Made by a program: the position numbers and the translations under genes
In this document: one piece after another, positions 1 through 7,036 of the stretch
Layout of the letters: each line of letters starts with the position of its first letter
How positions within the stretch are numbered: the first letter of the stretch is position 1
The notes under the pieces: generated by a model
Database searches by the model: none
What the model saw: the letters and a program-made list of their open reading frames with translations, nothing else
What the model was told of the DNA's origin: nothing
DNA from: JALTID01 sp027004335 [NCBI: bacterium]
GTDB lineage: Bacteria; JALSQH01
Length of the DNA: 7,036 nt
Reading direction: 5' to 3'
Assembly: GCA_027004335.1 (NCBI GenBank)
Contig: JALTID010000211.1
Location: 1-7,036, forward strand

Positions 1-6
1 CGTCAC
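1..6 (-). CDS. possible first codons of a third operon gene, cut by the window edge
   Basis: On the minus strand, just after the TGA stop of the glycosyltransferase, a purine-rich stretch (CAGGAAAG) is followed by GTG-ACG at the window edge. This could be the start of a downstream gene in the same operon, about 20 bp after the preceding stop. Only two codons are visible, so neither the gene nor its product can be confirmed. In Thermoproteus tenax the comparable operon also carries a mechanosensitive channel gene, but nothing here shows that one follows. Confidence 0.2.
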
Positions 7-25
7 GCTTTCCTGCCGTTTTTTA

Positions 26-1240
26 TCAAGAGGATAATTCATTGAAAAGGTCAGTATAATTCATCAGCAATCTTGTGATTAGAAATTTCTCTCTTACAAT
101 TTCTCTTCCTCTTTTACCAAGAAGAGCGGCAAGTTCAGGGGCCTTCAGAATGTCAATTACCCTTTTAGCAAATCCATCAACATCTTCTGGATCTACTAAA
201 AAGCCATTATACCCATCTTTGATTTGAAGTGGTATTCCTCCAACAGCAGAAGCAACTACTGGTTTCCCTTTCCAGAGTGCCTCAGTTACCGTAAGACCAA
301 ATCCTTCTCTCAAAGATTTCTGAATTACTACAGCAGCCTTCCTCTGCAGAGCATTAACAAGGAAGTTGTTCTCAAGGCTTATAAGAACCAGATCCCCGCT
401 TTTTATAAGGTCTGAATATTTTCTCTCTATCCTTTCAAAGATATTCCATCCTTCCGGATCATCTGTGGCCATACTCCCACAGAGAACCAATCTTACATCC
501 ACCTCTTCTTTAACTTTCCGGAAAATTTCAATAACTCCTTCTGGATCCTTCCATTTATCAAATCGGGACACCTGCAGCATAAAAGGTTTCTTATCATAAT
601 CTGGAATAAACTTTCTTAAAAATTTATCAAATTCCTCCTCAGGAAAATCTCTGTTCTTTGATGAAAGAGGATCTATAGCAGGATAAAATATCCTTTGTTC
701 AATTGGAAGATCGTGCCTAACATAAGCCTCATTGGATACGATCATAACATCGTACCTCAATATAAGAGGGCGCAAAAAATCACAGATCTCCTCATTGGGA
801 TTGGAGAGGTCCACATGGCATCTCCAGACCCAGGGTTGTCTCTTTTTATAAAACTTCACGAGTGGAAGAGGTTGAGGATCATGAATCACAACTATATCAT
901 GATGTATATGGGTATAAACAGAAAAATTTTCATTGGTCTGAAAATAAAGATCCTTTTTCCTTTCAGTAAGATGGATCTTATCCCCCTGCAGGGAGTTATG
1001 TATTTTTTTTGTAACACCAAAGAAATCTTCATTAGCATGAAGAATTCTCCATCCCACATCCATTCCTACATCATTGGCAAGGGGTACCATGGTGGAAAGC
1101 ATCTCAGCAACCCCACCTCCTTGAAATGTGGAATTAATATTCAATATTTTTTTGTTGTAGAGCCGTCTTGCCTTCCTGTAAATTTCTGTGATCACAACAT
1201 CATCCACTATCCCCCTGTAATTTTCAAGTGTAATCACCAT
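26..1240 (-). CDS. treT: TreT-type trehalose synthase, GT4 glycosyltransferase
   Basis: This 404-residue protein resembles TreT, the trehalose glycosyltransferring synthase that joins the glucose of a nucleotide-diphosphate-glucose to free glucose to give trehalose in the cytoplasm. The N-terminal Rossmann half has a glycine-rich GGGVAE loop (residues 41-46), HDPQPLPL (120-127) and RCHVDLSNP (140-148). The C-terminal half has VSRFDKWKDP (224-233), where R226 and K231 should contact the nucleotide diphosphate. It ends in a classical E-x7-E motif with E312 and E320 inside REGFGLTVTE. Length and motif order fit archaeal TreT, and the IDPLS.KN segment (189-196) is also typical. No signal peptide or membrane segment is present. 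The ATG has an AGGAGG four bases upstream. It follows the fused synthase/phosphatase gene by 12 bp, so the two are probably co-transcribed. An alternative role is a regulatory or structural partner of that enzyme, as described for the glycosyltransferase of the Thermoproteus tenax trehalose operon. I am confident of the family; donor and acceptor are inferred. Confidence 0.88.
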   Translation of the reverse strand: MVITLENYRGIVDDVVITEIYRKARRLYNKKILNINSTFQGGGVAEMLSTMVPLANDVGMDVGWRILHANEDFFGVTKKIHNSLQGDKIHLTERKKDLYFQTNENFSVYTHIHHDIVVIHDPQPLPLVKFYKKRQPWVWRCHVDLSNPNEEICDFLRPLILRYDVMIVSNEAYVRHDLPIEQRIFYPAIDPLSSKNRDFPEEEFDKFLRKFIPDYDKKPFMLQVSRFDKWKDPEGVIEIFRKVKEEVDVRLVLCGSMATDDPEGWNIFERIERKYSDLIKSGDLVLISLENNFLVNALQRKAAVVIQKSLREGFGLTVTEALWKGKPVVASAVGGIPLQIKDGYNGFLVDPEDVDGFAKRVIDILKAPELAALLGKRGREIVREKFLITRLLMNYTDLFNELSS

Positions 1241-1244
1241 ACTT

Positions 1245-1250
1245 CCTCCT
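1245..1250 (-). promoter_or_regulatory. strong Shine-Dalgarno for treT
   Basis: The minus strand reads AGGAGG here, four bases before the ATG at 1240. It sits in the 12-bp gap just upstream of the synthase/phosphatase stop codon at 1253. Ribosomes finishing the first gene would arrive directly on this site, which fits a translationally linked operon. Confidence 0.75.
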
Positions 1251-1252
1251 AT

Positions 1253-3439
1253 CTAAGTTAAAAATGCCTGAAGAAGATATCTAACCATAACTGGATTTTC
1301 TACATAAAATTTAGCCTTGGATGGTTTTATGCCAACCTTTACCGAATATGCATTTTCAGGGAGAATATTAAATACATCTTCATCTGTTTTATCGTCACCG
1401 GCGGCCAGAATAAATTCCCATTCTTTCCTTTCCAGCCATCTTTTCACTGCTGCACCTTTATTGATGCCGGCATTTTTTATTTCAAGTACCTTATCACCTT
1501 CAAGAACAGAGAGGTCCTTATTGGCAATAACAGGAACAAGAGCTGATTTTAATTCTGCACGCTTCTGCACCACCTGTTCAGGATCTGCCTCACGGAAATG
1601 CCAAGCAAGAGAATACTCTTTTTCTTCAATAAAACTGCCCGGAGTTGAGAGCATAAACCGTTCAAGGATATTACGGATTTCATCCTTCCATGAACTGTCC
1701 ACAGGTTCAATTGTATACCACTCACCATCTCTCTCTCTTACCCATACCCCATGTTCTGCCACTAAGTGCAGAAAATTTATCTGATCAAACCACTTTTCAA
1801 GAAACTTCCTGTCTCTTCCACTGATTACAACAACATCAGCATTCTCTATCTCAGTAAGCTTTTCTAAAATTTCAAGAATCTCGCTATCAGGAACAGCATA
1901 TTCAGGTCTCTTTTGAAGAGGGATAAGAGTACCATCATAATCAAGTATAAGCAGCTTACTTCTGGCAGAGGAAAACTCTTTTTTTATCCTTTCTGTGAGT
2001 GCAGGTGTTAATTTTTTCCCTTTTCTCTCCTCTATCTCCCCCTTAACCTGAATAAGTTTATCCACAAAATCCTGGGTCCACTTGCGAATATCATACCTTC
2101 TGATCCTCTCCTGCATAAACCTATTTCGTTTAACTTGTTCATCCTCATCCATGGTAAGAGCTTCAAAAAATGCATTAGAAATCTCTCTAATATCATAAGG
2201 ATTAATGATAACTGCCTCATTCATCTCCCTTGCAGCTCCAGCCATTTCACTGAGTATGAGAACTCCTGGATTATCCTGCTTAACAGTAACATATTCCTTT
2301 GCCACAAGATTCATACCATCACGAAGAGGAGTAACAAGAGCAACATCTGCAGCAAGATAGAACACGGAAAGATTCTTCTGAGAAAATGATTTATAATAAA
2401 AGTGTAGAGGTATCCAGCCAGAGGAACTGAAGTTACCGTTGATCTCACCTACAAGTTCACTTACCTCTCTTTTGATCTCAGCGTAGTATTCCACATCTTC
2501 CCTGGAAGGAACAACAATTAAAATGTAAATTATCTTTCCATGGAACTCGGGATGCTTCTTTAAAAATAGCTCAAATGCCTTCAGCCTGTTTATAATCCCC
2601 TTGGTATAATCAAGTCTATCCACAGAAAGGATTATCTTCCTATTCCCTGTATTTTTCTTTAATTCATCTACCCCTTTCAAGACATCTTCATCTCTACTCA
2701 TTCCAATCCAGAATTGATAATCTATACTAATCGGAAAAGCATCAACCTTTACGGGTCTGCCGTTGAGTATATAGGAAAGGTCGTTCTCATAACCGAGAAC
2801 TTTCAGCACGCTGTTTAAAAAATAATTACCATACTCATAGGTGTGAAACCCAATAAGATCAGATCCAATCAAACCTTCAAGAATCTCCCTCTTCCACGGA
2901 ATGATCCTGAAAACCTCATATGCAGGAAAGGGGATATGGAGAAAAAATCCTATAGTGGCATCTGGAAATTTCTCGCGTATCATTGCTGGTAGCAGCATCA
3001 GATGATAATCATGAATCCAGAGAAAATCCCCCTTCCTATAAACTCTACTCAAAGTTTCCGCATACTTCCTGTTTACTTTAACATATTCCTCCCAGTAACT
3101 CTCATTAAATTCAATATACTGCGGAAAATAATGAAAAAGGGGCCATATTACCTTATTGCTGAAACCATCGTAGAAATTTTTTAAACTCTTTCTGGCAAGG
3201 AAAACTGGAAAACATTTCTCCGCATTTAACTTATGGGCTATTTCAATGATATCGTCCTCGTTAAGCTCCTCTCTTGCGATTCCTGGCCAGCCTATCCAGA
3301 GAGTTTCATATTTATCTGTGAGGGAGGAAAGGGCACTGGCGAGACCCCCTGGACTTTTTGTATAGACTAATTTTCCTCTGGATTTCCTGATGGTAAATTT
3401 TGAGCGATTAGCAACTATAATAAGTCTTGATTGTTCCAT
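1253..3439 (-). CDS. tpsp: fused trehalose-6-phosphate synthase/phosphatase (OtsA-OtsB fusion, TPSP)
   Basis: This is a bifunctional enzyme of cytoplasmic trehalose synthesis. The N-terminal GT20 domain makes trehalose-6-phosphate from NDP-glucose and glucose-6-phosphate, and the C-terminal HAD domain removes the phosphate. Residue numbers count from the upstream ATG at 3523. Synthase motifs are RLIIVANR (33-40), PGGLASAL (58-65), HDYHL (171-175), VDRLDYTKG (301-309, with R303 and K308 matching E. coli OtsA R262 and K267), R341, and [10 protein letters not shown] (401-410, with D402 and E410 matching D361 and E369). Phosphatase motifs are DYDGTL (528-533, nucleophile D528), SGR (568-570), K683 or K689, and GDDKTDED (709-716). 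All expected catalytic residues are present in both halves. The frame opens at 3523, but homologues begin just before the RLIIVANR motif, so I prefer Met29 at 3439; Met7 at 3505 is another option. None of these starts has a good ribosome site, so the N terminus is uncertain. Prokaryotic fused forms are less common than separate otsA and otsB. Confidence 0.92.
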
Positions 3440-3446
3440 TATTATT

Positions 3447-3475
3447 ATTTTAGCACTTTTCGTGGGGTTTGAAAA
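3447..3475 (-). promoter_or_regulatory. candidate promoter for the trehalose operon
   Basis: Reading the minus strand, TTTTCA (3475-3470) and TAAAAT (3452-3447) are separated by exactly 17 bp. They match the sigma70 hexamers at 4/6 and 5/6 positions. The predicted transcript would start at or next to the ATG at 3439, making it nearly leaderless, which would explain the missing Shine-Dalgarno. It lies inside the open frame if translation begins at 3523, so it supports the shorter protein. This is pattern matching only. Confidence 0.35.
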
Positions 3476-3504
3476 TGGGGAAATATCTGTCACATTCTTT
3501 TTCA

Positions 3505-3533
3505 TTGACTCATAACTCAACATTCATTAAGAT
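3505..3533 (+). promoter_or_regulatory. candidate sigma70-like promoter for the plus-strand genes
   Basis: TTGACT (3505-3510) and TAAGAT (3528-3533) are separated by 17 bp and match consensus at 5/6 and 4/6 positions. Transcription would begin near 3540, leaving a short leader directly before the AGGAGG at 3544. The spacing of promoter, ribosome site and ATG is coherent. The promoter overlaps the 5' end of the divergent trehalose gene, so the two directions probably interfere. Confidence 0.5.
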
Positions 3534-3543
3534 TACCTAAAAT

Positions 3544-3549
3544 AGGAGG
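3544..3549 (+). promoter_or_regulatory. strong Shine-Dalgarno deciding a start at ATG 3555
   Basis: AGGAGG lies five bases before the ATG at 3555, and it is the best ribosome site in the divergent region. An ATG at 3550 lies too close to it, and its frame closes at 3622 after about 24 codons. The site therefore points to the frame opening at 3555, which closes after only 16 codons. Confidence 0.6.
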
Positions 3550-3554
3550 ATGGG

Positions 3555-3605
3555 ATGGATATTCCAGTATGGAGTGAAGAAGAAAAAAGGACGGTTTTCT
3601 GTTGA
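3555..3605 (+). other. 16-codon leader ORF, or the frameshifted 5' end of the next gene
   Basis: The frame reads MDIPVWSEEEKRTVFC and stops at TGA 3603-3605. It has a well-placed promoter and AGGAGG, signals normally given to a real gene. The stop overlaps the TTG at 3602 (TTGA), which would allow termination-reinitiation into the following frame. Alternatively, one missing base in the A6 run at 3583-3588 separates this start from its own gene. One extra A would join it to the frame ending at 3805 and give an 83-residue protein. I cannot tell the two apart from one sequence. Confidence 0.5.
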
Positions 3606-3805
3606 CTGCCATCGGACTGGCTGAGAATAACATTTTGAGGGTCAAAAAAGAAGTCTTTCAGCAGAGCTGTATTGAAGGCTATTTCAAACCAAGGGCAATC
3701 TCCCTCGGATTAAAGGTGATTGAAGCTGTCCCACTAAAAGAGGGATATAGAATAAGGGGGGGGAGGAACAAAAAATCTCCCCTGAGAAGAATCTATTGTG
3801 AATAA
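3602..3805 (+). CDS. small protein of unknown function, possibly lacking its true N terminus
   Basis: This is a 67-residue frame starting at TTG. I do not recognise it. It is basic (many Lys and Arg, including an RGGRNKK cluster near residues 52-58) and has two cysteines (in QSCIEG and YCE). It shows no membrane segment or known motif. The TTG has only a weak AAGGA 10 bases upstream, while a strong start in another frame lies at 3555. This suggests either coupled translation from a leader or a frameshift that removed the first roughly 16 residues. A run of eight G at 3756-3763 is a second spot where a one-base change would alter the C terminus. The frame overlaps the membrane-protein start by 8 bp, so it is probably co-transcribed and translationally coupled with it. 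It could be a degraded gene remnant. Confidence 0.4.
   Translation: MTAIGLAENNILRVKKEVFQQSCIEGYFKPRAISLGLKVIEAVPLKEGYRIRGGRNKKSPLRRIYCE
3756..3763 (+). repeat. homopolymeric tract of eight G
   Basis: Eight consecutive G lie inside the small frame ending at 3805, in the Arg-Gly-Gly codons. Tracts of this length can slip during replication. A G9 version would change the tail to a different sequence ending at TGA 3799-3801, and a G7 version would end at TGA near 3784. It is also a place where sequencing error is likely. Confidence 0.6.
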
Positions 3806-5084
3806 TAAAAGTAGGCCAATCAAAATCATGATTTCTATTTTAGCAGGCTGGTCCGGATTACTGCTGATTATATTCCCTTTGCTTGGATTTCCTCTATTTG
3901 AGATAGGAGATTTTAATTTTTACACAGCAATGGCATATCACGGAATAGCAATAACTGCATGGTTGTTGCTACTTCTTGCATATTTATACTATATCAAGCC
4001 ATCGCAGAAAATAGAAAAATGGAGTGGATATGGGGCAGTAGCTGCAGCTATCTTAGCTGGAATTGGTTCTATGCTAATACACAACAGGGGGGTTTCCACC
4101 GGCACAGTTATTCAGATCTCAGGAATGGTTCTTACAGAAATTATTGCACTGACAATAATAATTTTAGCGATCAAATTTTATTTTACAGAACCCATGAAAA
4201 ATATTAATTCTCTTGCATGGTGGACTGGTTTAACAGGACTTATATCAATGTCTTTATCTGCTCCCCTGGGACATTTAGCTGGAGCTACAATTGATCTGGG
4301 AAATAAATTCTTTCTCATACTGCAACATGCAAAAGCTTTAAATATGCCTGTGCAGGATGTGCTTGATGGCTATATTGGGTCTCACAGCCACGAAATTTTA
4401 GCAGCATTTTTTGCTACCGCTTTTACAATACCTCTAATAAGTAGATCCGAAGAAGAGAAAAAGGGAACAGTTATTATAGAGAAGTTCAGTTTGTTTATCA
4501 TAATAATAGCAACTATTGCACAAACACTCCTCTACCAGTACTGTGCATGGTCCGGTTGGGAACCCCCAACTCTCTTTGCCAATGGACCCAATGGGATTCC
4601 CCTTGATGATTTCATACTTTCCATTCTGGGAATAGGTTTGTTGATCCTTATCTACCCCCTTATTGTGAGAGCAGGAAAAAAACTTAAAAGTAAAACAGGG
4701 CTCATCAACATCACGGTTGCGCTAACCCTGTTTGCCTATCTAATATCAATTGTGGCACTGGGCATATTTATTGAATTCCATGAGCAGTATTTCGGCCATG
4801 GAGAGGGGAGTGCCCGTGGTGTCTTGCACGATATGGCTTATATTAGAGCACATCTACTCTTTGGATTTATGATAATTCCTATCTTGTTAGGCACGCTCCT
4901 CCACGGGGAGCTTATCACTGATAAAAAGCGACTTTATCCTCCTTTCAGTATAGCGTTACTTGCAATAATATCAGGCTCCATGGGGGTATTCACATGGACA
5001 TTTTCCTTAAATCCTCTTTTAGTAGAAGTATCATTTTCCCTCACCGCACTATCCCTGCTGGTGTTTGGAGTAGCAGGAGGGTAA
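3798..5084 (+). CDS. polytopic membrane protein with partial heme-copper oxidase subunit I motifs
   Basis: This 428-residue protein is very hydrophobic, with about 12 predicted membrane helices (roughly residues 11-33, 41-66, 76-96, 104-129, 139-161, 198-215, 228-248, 270-290, 302-326, 346-370, 381-400, 405-425). That is the helix count of heme-copper oxidase subunit I. Helix 2 carries AYHGI (H48), like the YHG motif with the low-spin heme ligand. Helix 6 begins HSHE (196-199), recalling the GHPEV region. Helix 10 carries VLHD..Y..AH (342-352), very like VLHDTYYVVAHFH. The expected HH pair of helix 7 is absent, and the last His of AHFH is Leu354. It may therefore bind heme without being an oxidase, or the likeness may be superficial. 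NnrS-like proteins, with an HAHE motif, are another possibility. The GTG start overlaps the preceding frame by 8 bp, and ATG 3828 is an alternative. No oxidase subunit II is adjacent. I am sure it is a membrane protein; the family link is inferred. Confidence 0.75.
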   Translation: MNNKSRPIKIMISILAGWSGLLLIIFPLLGFPLFEIGDFNFYTAMAYHGIAITAWLLLLLAYLYYIKPSQKIEKWSGYGAVAAAILAGIGSMLIHNRGVSTGTVIQISGMVLTEIIALTIIILAIKFYFTEPMKNINSLAWWTGLTGLISMSLSAPLGHLAGATIDLGNKFFLILQHAKALNMPVQDVLDGYIGSHSHEILAAFFATAFTIPLISRSEEEKKGTVIIEKFSLFIIIIATIAQTLLYQYCAWSGWEPPTLFANGPNGIPLDDFILSILGIGLLILIYPLIVRAGKKLKSKTGLINITVALTLFAYLISIVALGIFIEFHEQYFGHGEGSARGVLHDMAYIRAHLLFGFMIIPILLGTLLHGELITDKKRLYPPFSIALLAIISGSMGVFTWTFSLNPLLVEVSFSLTALSLLVFGVAGG

Positions 5085-5089
5085 TCCTC

Positions 5090-5118
5090 TTGCCATTTTT
5101 CCCAATTCCTTCTAATAT
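5090..5118 (+). promoter_or_regulatory. candidate promoter for the GH5 lipoprotein gene
   Basis: TTGCCA (5090-5095) and TAATAT (5113-5118) are 17 bp apart and match consensus at 5/6 and 4/6 positions. The transcript would start near 5125, giving a leader of about 24 bases with AAAGGG at 5135-5140, eight bases before the ATG. The glycosidase can therefore be expressed apart from the membrane-protein gene, which ends just 5 bp before the -35. No terminator is visible between the two genes, so read-through is also possible. Confidence 0.45.
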
Positions 5119-5148
5119 CTTAAATGGAACCGAGAAAGGGTAATAATT

Positions 5149-6573
5149 ATGAAAAAAATATTGACTCTTTTAATTCTGATTCCACTGATTTTAATCTCAT
5201 GCGGGGGAAAAACAAAAGAGGAAAAAGGTGCAAGCACTCCTCAGATTAAAGCCTACCCCCTCTATGTTGAAAACTACCAATTTAAAAAAGATGGATATAC
5301 CTTTCTTGCCAGGGGTATCAATGTTGCTGGAGACTGGAAATACAAAAATGCACCTGCCATCTACCCATACCTCGGCAATGTCACAGAAGGTACTTTTCGC
5401 TGGTTGCGTGAAGATCTTGGGTACAACTTTGTAAGAATGTTAGCTATCTGGGCAGCTATTGAACCAGAACCTAACAAATTTAACGAAGATTATATAAAAG
5501 AATACGCGAAGAGGGTCTCCTGGGCAGAAGAAAATCATATGTATGTTTTCATAGATATGCATCAGGATGCCTACAGCGAAGCATTTTACAAATATGGAGG
5601 TGACGGTGCTCCAACCTGGACATGTCCATCAAAATATTATCAGGATCAACCTGATATGCCCAGATGGGAACTGGGTTATCTCACACCAGGAGTACTGGCA
5701 TGTGTAAAAAGATTCTGGAGCAATGAGGATAACCTCTGGTGGCACTATGGTGAATCTGTTAAAAGGATATTACAACCTTTTGCAAAGAGCAAAACAGTAG
5801 TTGGATTGGAGATCATGAATGAGCCATTCTGGGGACCATTTGGTCCAGATACATTTGAAAGAAAATACCTCTACAGGTTTTATCTCTACATTGGCAAAAT
5901 TATTCAGCAGATAGCTCCACAAAAAATTATCTTTTTTGAACCAGCAGCATCCAAGAATCTCGGGTATCCATCTGAATTACCACCGATTCCCTTCCCCCAA
6001 CTTGCCTACGCACCCCATTTTTATCTCACCACTTTCTATTTGGGAAGGACCTACCCCGGGGACATGACCGGGATGCTTCAAGAGAGCATGGAGACACGAA
6101 TTGGAGAAGCAAAGGCTCAAAATGCTGTGCCCATAATCGGAGAATTTGGAGCCTGGATGGACAGAGAATCCACTATCAAATATTTGAAGGATTTCTTTAA
6201 TGCAGCAGAAACCGTTAAGATCAATTTAACCCAGTGGGAACTTACCGATACTGAATACAGATTTCAAAATAGTGACTACTGGGGCGAGTGGATCAAAGTA
6301 GTTATCAGGGCTTTTCCGGAAATGTGGCAGGGAAATCTTGTAAAATATAGCTACGACCCTTATAAATTAATTCTTTCTATAACCTGGGAGGCAAAGAATA
6401 AGGATGACATGATCGTAACACTACCTCATTATATTTTTAAGAAGCAATGTAGTGTTAATTCTGCTCCTGATGCAATTAAATGGGAGTGGATAAATAAATA
6501 CCAGATAAGAATAACTGCGGAAAAATCAGATACCTTTAACATAAAAGTGAACGCAGAGACCACCCAGCACTGA
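5149..6573 (+). CDS. GH5-family glycoside hydrolase lipoprotein, endoglycoceramidase-like
   Basis: This 474-residue protein is predicted to be exported and lipid-anchored. A Lys-Lys start and hydrophobic stretch (4-16) lead to the lipobox LISC with Cys18. The next residue is Gly, so in a two-membrane cell it would go to the outer membrane. A (beta/alpha)8 GH5 domain covers about residues 40-380: R96 in VRMLAIW, H138 in DMHQDAY, GDGAPTW (151-157), acid/base E225 in NEPFWG, H290 in APHFY, and nucleophile E332 in GEFGAW. The MHQD and GDGAP.W signatures and the likely C-terminal beta-sandwich (about 395-470) resemble endoglycoceramidases, which release whole glycans from glycosphingolipids with retention of configuration. 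Length is close to the roughly 490 residues of Rhodococcus EGCase II. All expected catalytic residues are present. Its substrate could be a glycolipid or a beta-glucan; other GH5 subfamilies are not excluded. AAAGGG lies eight bases before the ATG. Confidence 0.85.
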   Translation: MKKILTLLILIPLILISCGGKTKEEKGASTPQIKAYPLYVENYQFKKDGYTFLARGINVAGDWKYKNAPAIYPYLGNVTEGTFRWLREDLGYNFVRMLAIWAAIEPEPNKFNEDYIKEYAKRVSWAEENHMYVFIDMHQDAYSEAFYKYGGDGAPTWTCPSKYYQDQPDMPRWELGYLTPGVLACVKRFWSNEDNLWWHYGESVKRILQPFAKSKTVVGLEIMNEPFWGPFGPDTFERKYLYRFYLYIGKIIQQIAPQKIIFFEPAASKNLGYPSELPPIPFPQLAYAPHFYLTTFYLGRTYPGDMTGMLQESMETRIGEAKAQNAVPIIGEFGAWMDRESTIKYLKDFFNAAETVKINLTQWELTDTEYRFQNSDYWGEWIKVVIRAFPEMWQGNLVKYSYDPYKLILSITWEAKNKDDMIVTLPHYIFKKQCSVNSAPDAIKWEWINKYQIRITAEKSDTFNIKVNAETTQH

Positions 6574-6581
6574 TTACCACC

Positions 6582-6601
6582 TTGCAAAGTGTCTTTGGCA
6601 A
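6582..6601 (+). terminator. weak hairpin after the GH5 gene, no T tract
   Basis: TTGCAAAG and CTTT-G-GCAA can pair into an 8-bp stem with one bulged G and a TGT loop, nine bases after the GH5 stop. It is followed by AACTTGCAG, not a run of T, so it does not look like a standard intrinsic terminator. It may only protect the 3' end of the transcript. Confidence 0.2.
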
Positions 6602-6650
6602 AACTTGCAGCAGGGTGAGGAAGATGTCTTAACCAGGAAAAGCAATTTAC

Positions 6651-6679
6651 TTGACAACTAAATTGAACTATGGTAAGGT
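6651..6679 (+). promoter_or_regulatory. candidate promoter for the condensing-enzyme gene
   Basis: A perfect TTGACA (6651-6656) is followed after 17 bp by TAAGGT (6674-6679). The -10 is weak, matching 3/6 positions. Transcription would start near 6686, inside the palindrome at 6684-6699, with a leader of about 35 bases before the ATG at 6721. Confidence 0.5.
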
Positions 6680-6683
6680 AGTC

Positions 6684-6699
6684 TTGACAATTTTGTCAA
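6684..6699. promoter_or_regulatory. palindromic operator at the transcription start
   Basis: TTGACAA-TT-TTGTCAA is a perfect 7-bp inverted repeat with a 2-base centre. It covers the predicted start of transcription, a typical place for a repressor. The 8-mer CTTGACAA occurs both here (6683-6690) and over the -35 (6650-6657), exactly 33 bp apart, close to three helical turns. A TetR- or MarR-type regulator of lipid metabolism is a plausible binder but is not encoded in view. Confidence 0.55.
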
Positions 6700-6720
6700 A
6701 ATTCAAAAAAGGAGTATGTT

Positions 6721-7036
6721 ATGATTGGAATTAAAGACCTGGGTTCTTACATTCCAGCTCACAGATTACCCCGTCAAAAAATAGGTGAGGCCTTGGGGTA
6801 TGATGAATTTTTTATGAAGATGATGTTGGGTGAGAAAGCGGTGGCCAACTACGATGAGGATTCGCTGACCATGGCTTCGGAGGCTGTGCTTTTAGCGCTG
6901 GAGGGAAGGGATACATCCAAGATCAATGCACTCTATTTTGCTTCTACAACAGCTCCCTATCTTGAAAAAAATACCTCCAGCACTCTTGCTGAGATTGCTG
7001 ATCTTTCCAGTGAAATTAGTACCATTGATTTTGGTA
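6721..7036 (+). CDS. HMG-CoA synthase-like / KAS III-like condensing enzyme, 3' end outside window
   Basis: Only the first 105 codons are visible, and the frame stays open to the edge. The sequence resembles the N-terminal thiolase-fold half of archaeal-type hydroxymethylglutaryl-CoA synthases and their bacterial relatives: GSYIPAHRLP (8-17), a GEKAVANYDEDSLTMA segment (37-52) and LYFASTTAPYLEK (71-83). True HMG-CoA synthases condense acetyl-CoA with acetoacetyl-CoA through an active-site Cys, which would fall just beyond the window. Near residue 76, where HMG-CoA synthases carry the general acid/base Glu (the ESxPY region), this protein has Thr-Thr, so it may catalyse a different acyl condensation. 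Bacterial members often sit with a thiolase and a DUF35 OB-fold protein, which may lie downstream. The ATG has AGGAG six bases upstream (6710-6714), a convincing start. A promoter and operator precede it, so it probably opens a new operon. Confidence 0.82.
   Translation, partial: MIGIKDLGSYIPAHRLPRQKIGEALGYDEFFMKMMLGEKAVANYDEDSLTMASEAVLLALEGRDTSKINALYFASTTAPYLEKNTSSTLAEIADLSSEISTIDFG

Follow-up and report, generated by a model that had tools for sequence, protein, structure and literature searches.

A family of membrane proteins with a predicted heme-copper oxidase fold, its own invariant histidines and no helix-7 His-His pair

The window analyzed here is a DNA stretch of 7,036 nucleotides (positions 1 to 7,036, forward strand) of contig JALTID010000211.1 from the assembly GCA_027004335.1 of JALTID01 sp027004335. 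On its plus strand, an open reading frame with a GTG start codon (3798–5084) codes for a membrane protein of 428 amino acids, which is predicted from structural models of itself and of one homologue to share the fold of heme-copper oxidase (HCO) subunit I. The gene has a G+C content of 39.8%, the window as a whole one of 39.3%. By profile matches, the neighbors on the minus strand were assigned to a TreT-like glycosyltransferase and an OtsA-OtsB fusion, those on the plus strand to a GH5 hydrolase, followed by the start of an HMG-CoA-synthase-like gene. As noted in the preliminary description, no gene for subunit II, subunit III or a cytochrome is adjacent, and profile searches of the neighbors in the window revealed neither an oxidase subunit nor a cytochrome gene adjoining the HCO-fold gene. 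The two minus-strand genes (26–3523) represent two routes of trehalose synthesis side by side, and the GH5 hydrolase (5149–6573) carries a lipoprotein-like signal and is weakly endoglycoceramidase-like (88.7 bits vs. a cut-off of 700).

The protein gave no significant match to Pfam, NCBIfam or PDB sequences, the best NCBIfam row being UpsF with an E-value of 0.013 and 14.3 bits vs. a cut-off of 400. By scanning genome contigs, we found eight homologues (L006–L013), all of them in MAGs, whose titles name Deltaproteobacteria (three), Aquificota (two), Candidatus Zixiibacteriota, Planctomycetota and "bacterium". The homologues are 27–32% identical to the window protein and 49–72% identical among themselves. 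The latter values extend across phyla, which suggests horizontal spread, and an integrase-like fragment (below the Pfam cut-off) adjoins the homologue in L010. Judging from isolate names like "Dive96", the samples may come from the deep sea or from vents. Of 386 genomes searched, three gave matches, namely the window genome and two others, and two of nine genomes matched in the phylum of G022, one of the two being new; L011, L012 and L013 were taken as the same places as the earlier matches in G257, G022 and G388. At an E-value limit of 1, profile A3 recovered from the 386 genomes the two relatives already known, the window genome itself and nine weak matches (E 0.005–0.65), which we treated as chance; the ORFs of the two that were opened (L069, L070) appeared MFS-like and FecCD/BtuF-like by eye. 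No relatives of the window protein were found in plasmids, phages or IMG/VR, and no family of this kind is described in the titles and abstract openings of the open-licence papers searched.

Five histidines are invariant in all nine members, H48 in helix 2, H159 in helix 5, H196 and H198 in helix 6 and H352 in helix 10, which at 27–32% identity to the window protein is beyond chance. Further invariant residues include Y246, G253, E326, E329, D345, R350 and L354. According to the window model and the conservation pattern, helix 2 (residues 41–66; 3918–3995) contains H48 (codon 3939–3941) within the YHG motif of residues 47–49 that had already been recognized, helix 5 (residues 138–167; 4209–4298) contains H159 (4272–4274) and D166, and helix 6 (residues 185–208; 4350–4421) carries an invariant S-H-S-H motif with H196 (4383–4385) and H198 (4389–4391). 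Of the histidines in helices 5 and 6, the preliminary description named only H198, while H196 and H159 are equally invariant. Helix 7 (residues 226–252; 4473–4553) is devoid of a His-His pair and contains the invariant Y246 (4533–4535). For helix 10 (residues 342–375; 4821–4922), the bounds were transferred from the model of L007 through the alignment; it contains D345, R350, H352 (4851–4853) and L354. All these features lie on the plus strand.

The motif VLHDMAYIRAH of the window protein closes with H352, eight residues after H344, and L354 occupies the position of the second helix-10 ligand, exactly as described before. Yet the H344-D345 "HD pair" is no family feature: the H344 column contains His only in the window protein, Asn in seven of nine members and Phe in one, and it is D345 that is invariant. 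The H328 column contains His in five of the nine. Altogether, the window protein has histidines at positions 48, 95, 159, 177, 196, 198, 328, 334, 344, 352 and 369, none of which form a His-His pair. The helix-7 pair, whose absence had been pointed out, is missing in all nine members, as is the second helix-10 His, leaving the family with a His-x-His motif on helix 6 rather than on helix 10. The former label of a "degenerate" oxidase is doubtful because the family keeps its own invariant histidine set with the His-x-His on helix 6.

AlphaFold (AF2) models were obtained from the alignment of nine sequences for the window protein (pLDDT 66.6, pTM 0.73) and for the L007 protein (pLDDT 77.4, pTM 0.84), which are 32% identical. 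The twelve transmembrane helices of the L007 model bear out the earlier count of about twelve, whereas the window model shows eleven long ones, with helix 10 at low confidence and unformed. Both models agree in fold, and all 50 VIA-align rows listed for each of them were HCO or NO-reductase entries; for supercomplex entries among these, we take the matched chain to be subunit I. The best match of the window model was 8smr_E (Z 21.8, 363 residues, 3.8 Å, 9% identity), that of the L007 model 4xyd_A (Z 24.1, 376 residues, 3.8 Å, 9% identity); helical models that lack a clear match typically reach a best Z of about 14. VIA-align re-examines the candidates of Foldseek itself, whose best E-values were 0.078 for the window model and 0.011 for the L007 model, with none reaching 0.001. 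The two models draw on one alignment of nine sequences (Neff 2.2), so their independence is limited. From the agreement of two members with HCO subunit I, we regard the predicted 12-helix subunit I fold as highly probable, in line with the oxidase-like fold proposed initially; neither a different fold nor a transporter family with a confident match emerged.

At the sequence level, no significant similarity to HCOs was seen. None of the nine members matched PF00115 (COX1) at E-values up to 10, and hhalign comparisons of the family with HCO profiles yielded E-values of 0.41 (cbb3/NOR), 0.075 (A-type), 0.38 (B-type) and 0.21 (pooled), or 0.11 against 25 A-type sequences. The HCO profiles comprised 20 of 26 loci, leaving out L020, L049, L055 and L066 (judged to be translated in wrong frames) as well as L064 and L065 (no group); the A-type set retained 25 of 30 loci, after removal of one without HH and four longer than 820 amino acids. 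Using 22 of the 26 HCO loci, blastp without composition correction reached at best 38.5 bits vs. 31.2 for reversed sequences, and with correction in the 22-sequence database a best E-value of 0.006 vs. 0.032 for reversed ones; the longest alignment between the family and HCOs leaves the histidines unpaired. We therefore do not claim sequence homology to HCOs. NnrS (PF05940), a membrane heme/copper protein of a size similar to that of the window protein, was rejected as a relative: PF05940 matched none of the nine members at E-values up to 10, and hhalign against NnrS gave an E-value of 0.75, a weak test with five rough, untrimmed and partly doubtful sequences.

When compared with five A-type sequences, the helix-10 register proposed earlier turned out as the top ungapped 21-column match (z 5.53), but it is not the best one for other HCO types, and the best ungapped matches exceeded shuffled controls only modestly for A-type, since block shuffles reached them in 13 of 300 cases for A-type and likewise for cbb3/NOR, compared to 57 of 300 for B-type and 119 of 300 for the pooled set. 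For cbb3/NOR, the highest-scoring match (z 5.39) brought together the ends of family helix 2 and HCO helix 6 and, as counted by hand, paired H48 with the helix-6 His.

In a superfamily survey, six conserved His ligands of two hemes plus CuB or FeB are the entry criterion (PMC3084760). All nine members lack both the His-His pair and the second His of helix 10, and by this six-His test on the sequences the family would not be counted as a catalytic HCO or NOR. In the HCO profiles assembled for the comparison, helices 2 and 6 contain one His each, helix 7 a His-His and helix 10 a His-x-His; the corresponding helices of the family have one, two, none and one His. In cNOR, helices 2 and 10 hold heme b, and helices 6, 7 and 10 the binuclear center; for cbb3, the helices given are 2 and 10, and 6, 7 and "XII" (PMC10256718). 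By helix order, the invariant H48 corresponds to the helix-2 ligand of the low-spin heme in HCO and NOR, while on helix 6 the family has two His (H196 and H198) instead of the single CuB or FeB ligand of these enzymes, and in the module comparison described below this helix is more similar to HCO helix 10 than to HCO helix 6. The Tyr cross-linked to a CuB His is located on helix 6 of A types and of most B types and on helix 7 of the C type (PMC3084760); in the family, no Tyr occurs four residues after H196 or H198, and the invariant Y246 is on helix 7, where its His partner is missing.

The closest structural counterparts of the L007 model are NorB (4xyd, 3o0r) and CcoN of cbb3 oxidase (8smr, 3mk7) with Z values of 22.6–24.1. 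They share with the family the 12-helix fold, an N-terminus inside, a helix-2 His at the outer end and His on helices 6 and 10. Unlike them, the family lacks the helix-7 His-His, has His-x-His on helix 6, a single His on helix 10 and no subunit or heme-c partner adjoining the gene, and structural alignments yield only 7–11% identity. A-type (aa3) subunit I shares the fold (Z about 18–21 with the L007 model) and the D-x6-H spacing of helix 10 (HDTYYVVAH vs. HDMAYIRAH in the window protein), but differs by its helix-7 CuB ligands, its second helix-10 His and a Tyr four positions past the His of helix 6, and the profile comparison gave no significant match (hhalign E 0.075).

Topology was assessed with the helix bounds of L007 and 3-residue margins for loops. 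Lys and Arg make up 161 of 892 residues in inner loops vs. 39 of 909 in outer loops, and this surplus indicates an N-in topology, so both termini are predicted to be inside. The 68 invariant columns are distributed over the outer helix halves (38), the inner halves (10), the outer loops (19) and the inner loops or termini (1). The invariant helix residues include 19 from the polar set HDEKRSNQWY, every one of which is in the outer half. This argues against a conserved cytoplasmic proton path, and the location of invariant residues in the outer half argues, less strictly, against a transporter.

Helices 2, 6 and 10 of the HCO fold are pseudo-equivalent around a pseudo-threefold axis. We compared the helix modules with 120 shuffles per cell, and the z values are given here in the order A, cbb3/NOR, B. 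Family helix 6 scored 4.5, 3.85 and 1.86 against HCO helix 10 (2.26, 2.61 and 0.61 with His masked), vs. −1.22, 2.23 and −1.72 against HCO helix 6. Family helix 2 scored −0.79, 2.83 and 3.28 against HCO helix 6 (masked −0.87, 3.1 and 2.7), and family helix 10 reached −0.08, −0.67 and −0.85 against HCO helix 2 and 4.1, −0.19 and −1.08 against HCO helix 10. Summed over three helices, a shift by one unit amounts to 3.63, 6.01 and 4.29, compared to 2.52, 3.93 and −2.90 for no shift. In a first module test with 40 shuffles and five A-type sequences, the best alignments of family helix 2 with HCO helix 6 paired no His for cbb3/NOR and B. Because the leg of helix 10 with HCO helix 2 fails and pseudo-equivalent helices are alike anyway, these scores suggest, rather than establish, a one-unit shift of the modules; the similarity of family helix 10 to helix 10 of A-type likewise speaks against it. 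It is a rather doubtful extension that the HCO His pattern might have moved by one four-helix unit together with the cofactor sites; hemes would then be held by H48 and H196 (helices 2 and 6) and by H198 and H352 (helices 6 and 10), and the usual heme site between helices 2 and 10 would be empty.

We give about an even chance to the reading that the family represents an outward-facing heme protein of HCO fold, which would serve in electron transfer or redox reactions and neither reduce O2 nor pump protons. The invariant histidines of helices 2, 6 and 10 would bind one or two b-type hemes with two His per heme. Since the helix-7 His-His is missing, a CuB or FeB center of known kind would be absent, and together with the lack of a conserved polar cytoplasmic path, the protein should not be an O2-reducing proton pump. 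PF00115 matched in only one of nine family-bearing genomes (G396) vs. 63 of 145 genomes of a broad sample, with no match in the window genome (80.2% complete). The cytochrome-c-assembly family PF01578 matched in eight of nine, indicating that those genomes handle heme; the exception is the window genome, and G001 of its family is positive.

A different reading, which we consider unlikely though worth keeping in mind, is an HCO fold without heme, whose invariant His and carboxylates (E326, E329, D345) would form an outward metal site for metal or oxyanion handling, in some members together with an ABC transporter. Genes for a solute-binding protein, a permease and an ATPase indeed follow the homologue in L009 (11501–14826, after a DUF5916/CBM9 gene) and L011 (3367–6767), the first two also in L006 (6180–8513, up to the contig end), with permease and ATPase fragments in L008 (5434–6100). 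A short ORF in L012 resembles the start of the binding protein by eye, with no tblastn match. The binding protein is similar to ferric-iron binding proteins, and its closest PDB relative is HitA, in which two Tyr bind iron, and all three copies have LVDSDD where HitA has LINNYY. Its plasmid relatives (468 records matched) are near chromate-resistance genes, ChrA or ChrB, in three of four regions opened (40–49% identity), and the homologue in L013 adjoins an HlyD-type gene. Against a metal site, the window gene has no such ABC genes next to it, none were found in L007, L010 or L013 (a short contig), and the histidines occur on helices 2, 6 and 10, which in HCOs bear the heme and metal ligands. 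An ABC partnership as defining context was rejected for the window, and a search of its genome for the binding protein, run without a positive control, found nothing. In L013 (866–3957), the homologue lies between the HlyD-type gene and an ORF that resembles an RND pump start by eye.

Still less probable appears a catalytic HCO-type reductase of gases or small molecules with an unfamiliar active site, such as one high-spin heme and other metal ligands. The HCO fold of both models, the invariant Y246, E326, E329 and R350 near the outer side and a helix-10 His that in the A-type comparison aligns with the high-spin heme ligand would fit such an enzyme, but it would have to work without the helix-7 pair and without an adjacent electron-donor subunit in the window. 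NO reductases have a Glu four residues after the helix-6 His; the family has none four residues after H196 or H198 (I200 and A202 in the window protein). It is very unlikely that the family consists of unrelated 12-helix proteins, e.g., transporters, whose match to HCOs would be an artefact produced by too few sequences in the alignment, as might be suspected from nine sequences only, moderate pLDDT values and lacking significant sequence homology. The two models agree at 32% identity with Z values far above the helical background, non-HCO folds in the Foldseek lists reached TMq values of at most 0.23 vs. about 0.39–0.60 for HCO rows, and no transporter family matched. Furthermore, the inner half and inner loops hold only 11 of the 68 invariant residues, unlike what is expected for alternating access.

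The family combines a predicted HCO fold with no detectable sequence trace of it, a conserved His set of its own and an occurrence mostly in genomes without a detected oxidase. Such a family would bear on the beginnings of the superfamily, beside or before oxygen reduction, and on the re-use of its pseudo-threefold symmetry. The six-His entry criterion, as applied in at least one survey (PMC3084760), would filter out fold-keeping relatives with other cofactor sets.

Some further loci with PF00115 matches were observed. L065 (G063:C4:2141942-2143138) is a divergent match (46.5 bits) with a helix-10 His-x-His (RIPAHYHG) and no His-His pair, making it another HCO-like protein devoid of the helix-7 pair. 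Frames of about 140–160 codons, e.g., G073:C24:21218-21604, G092:C49:19154-19534 and G021:C66:20426-20827, match only the first third of PF00115 and are possibly small four-helix relatives.
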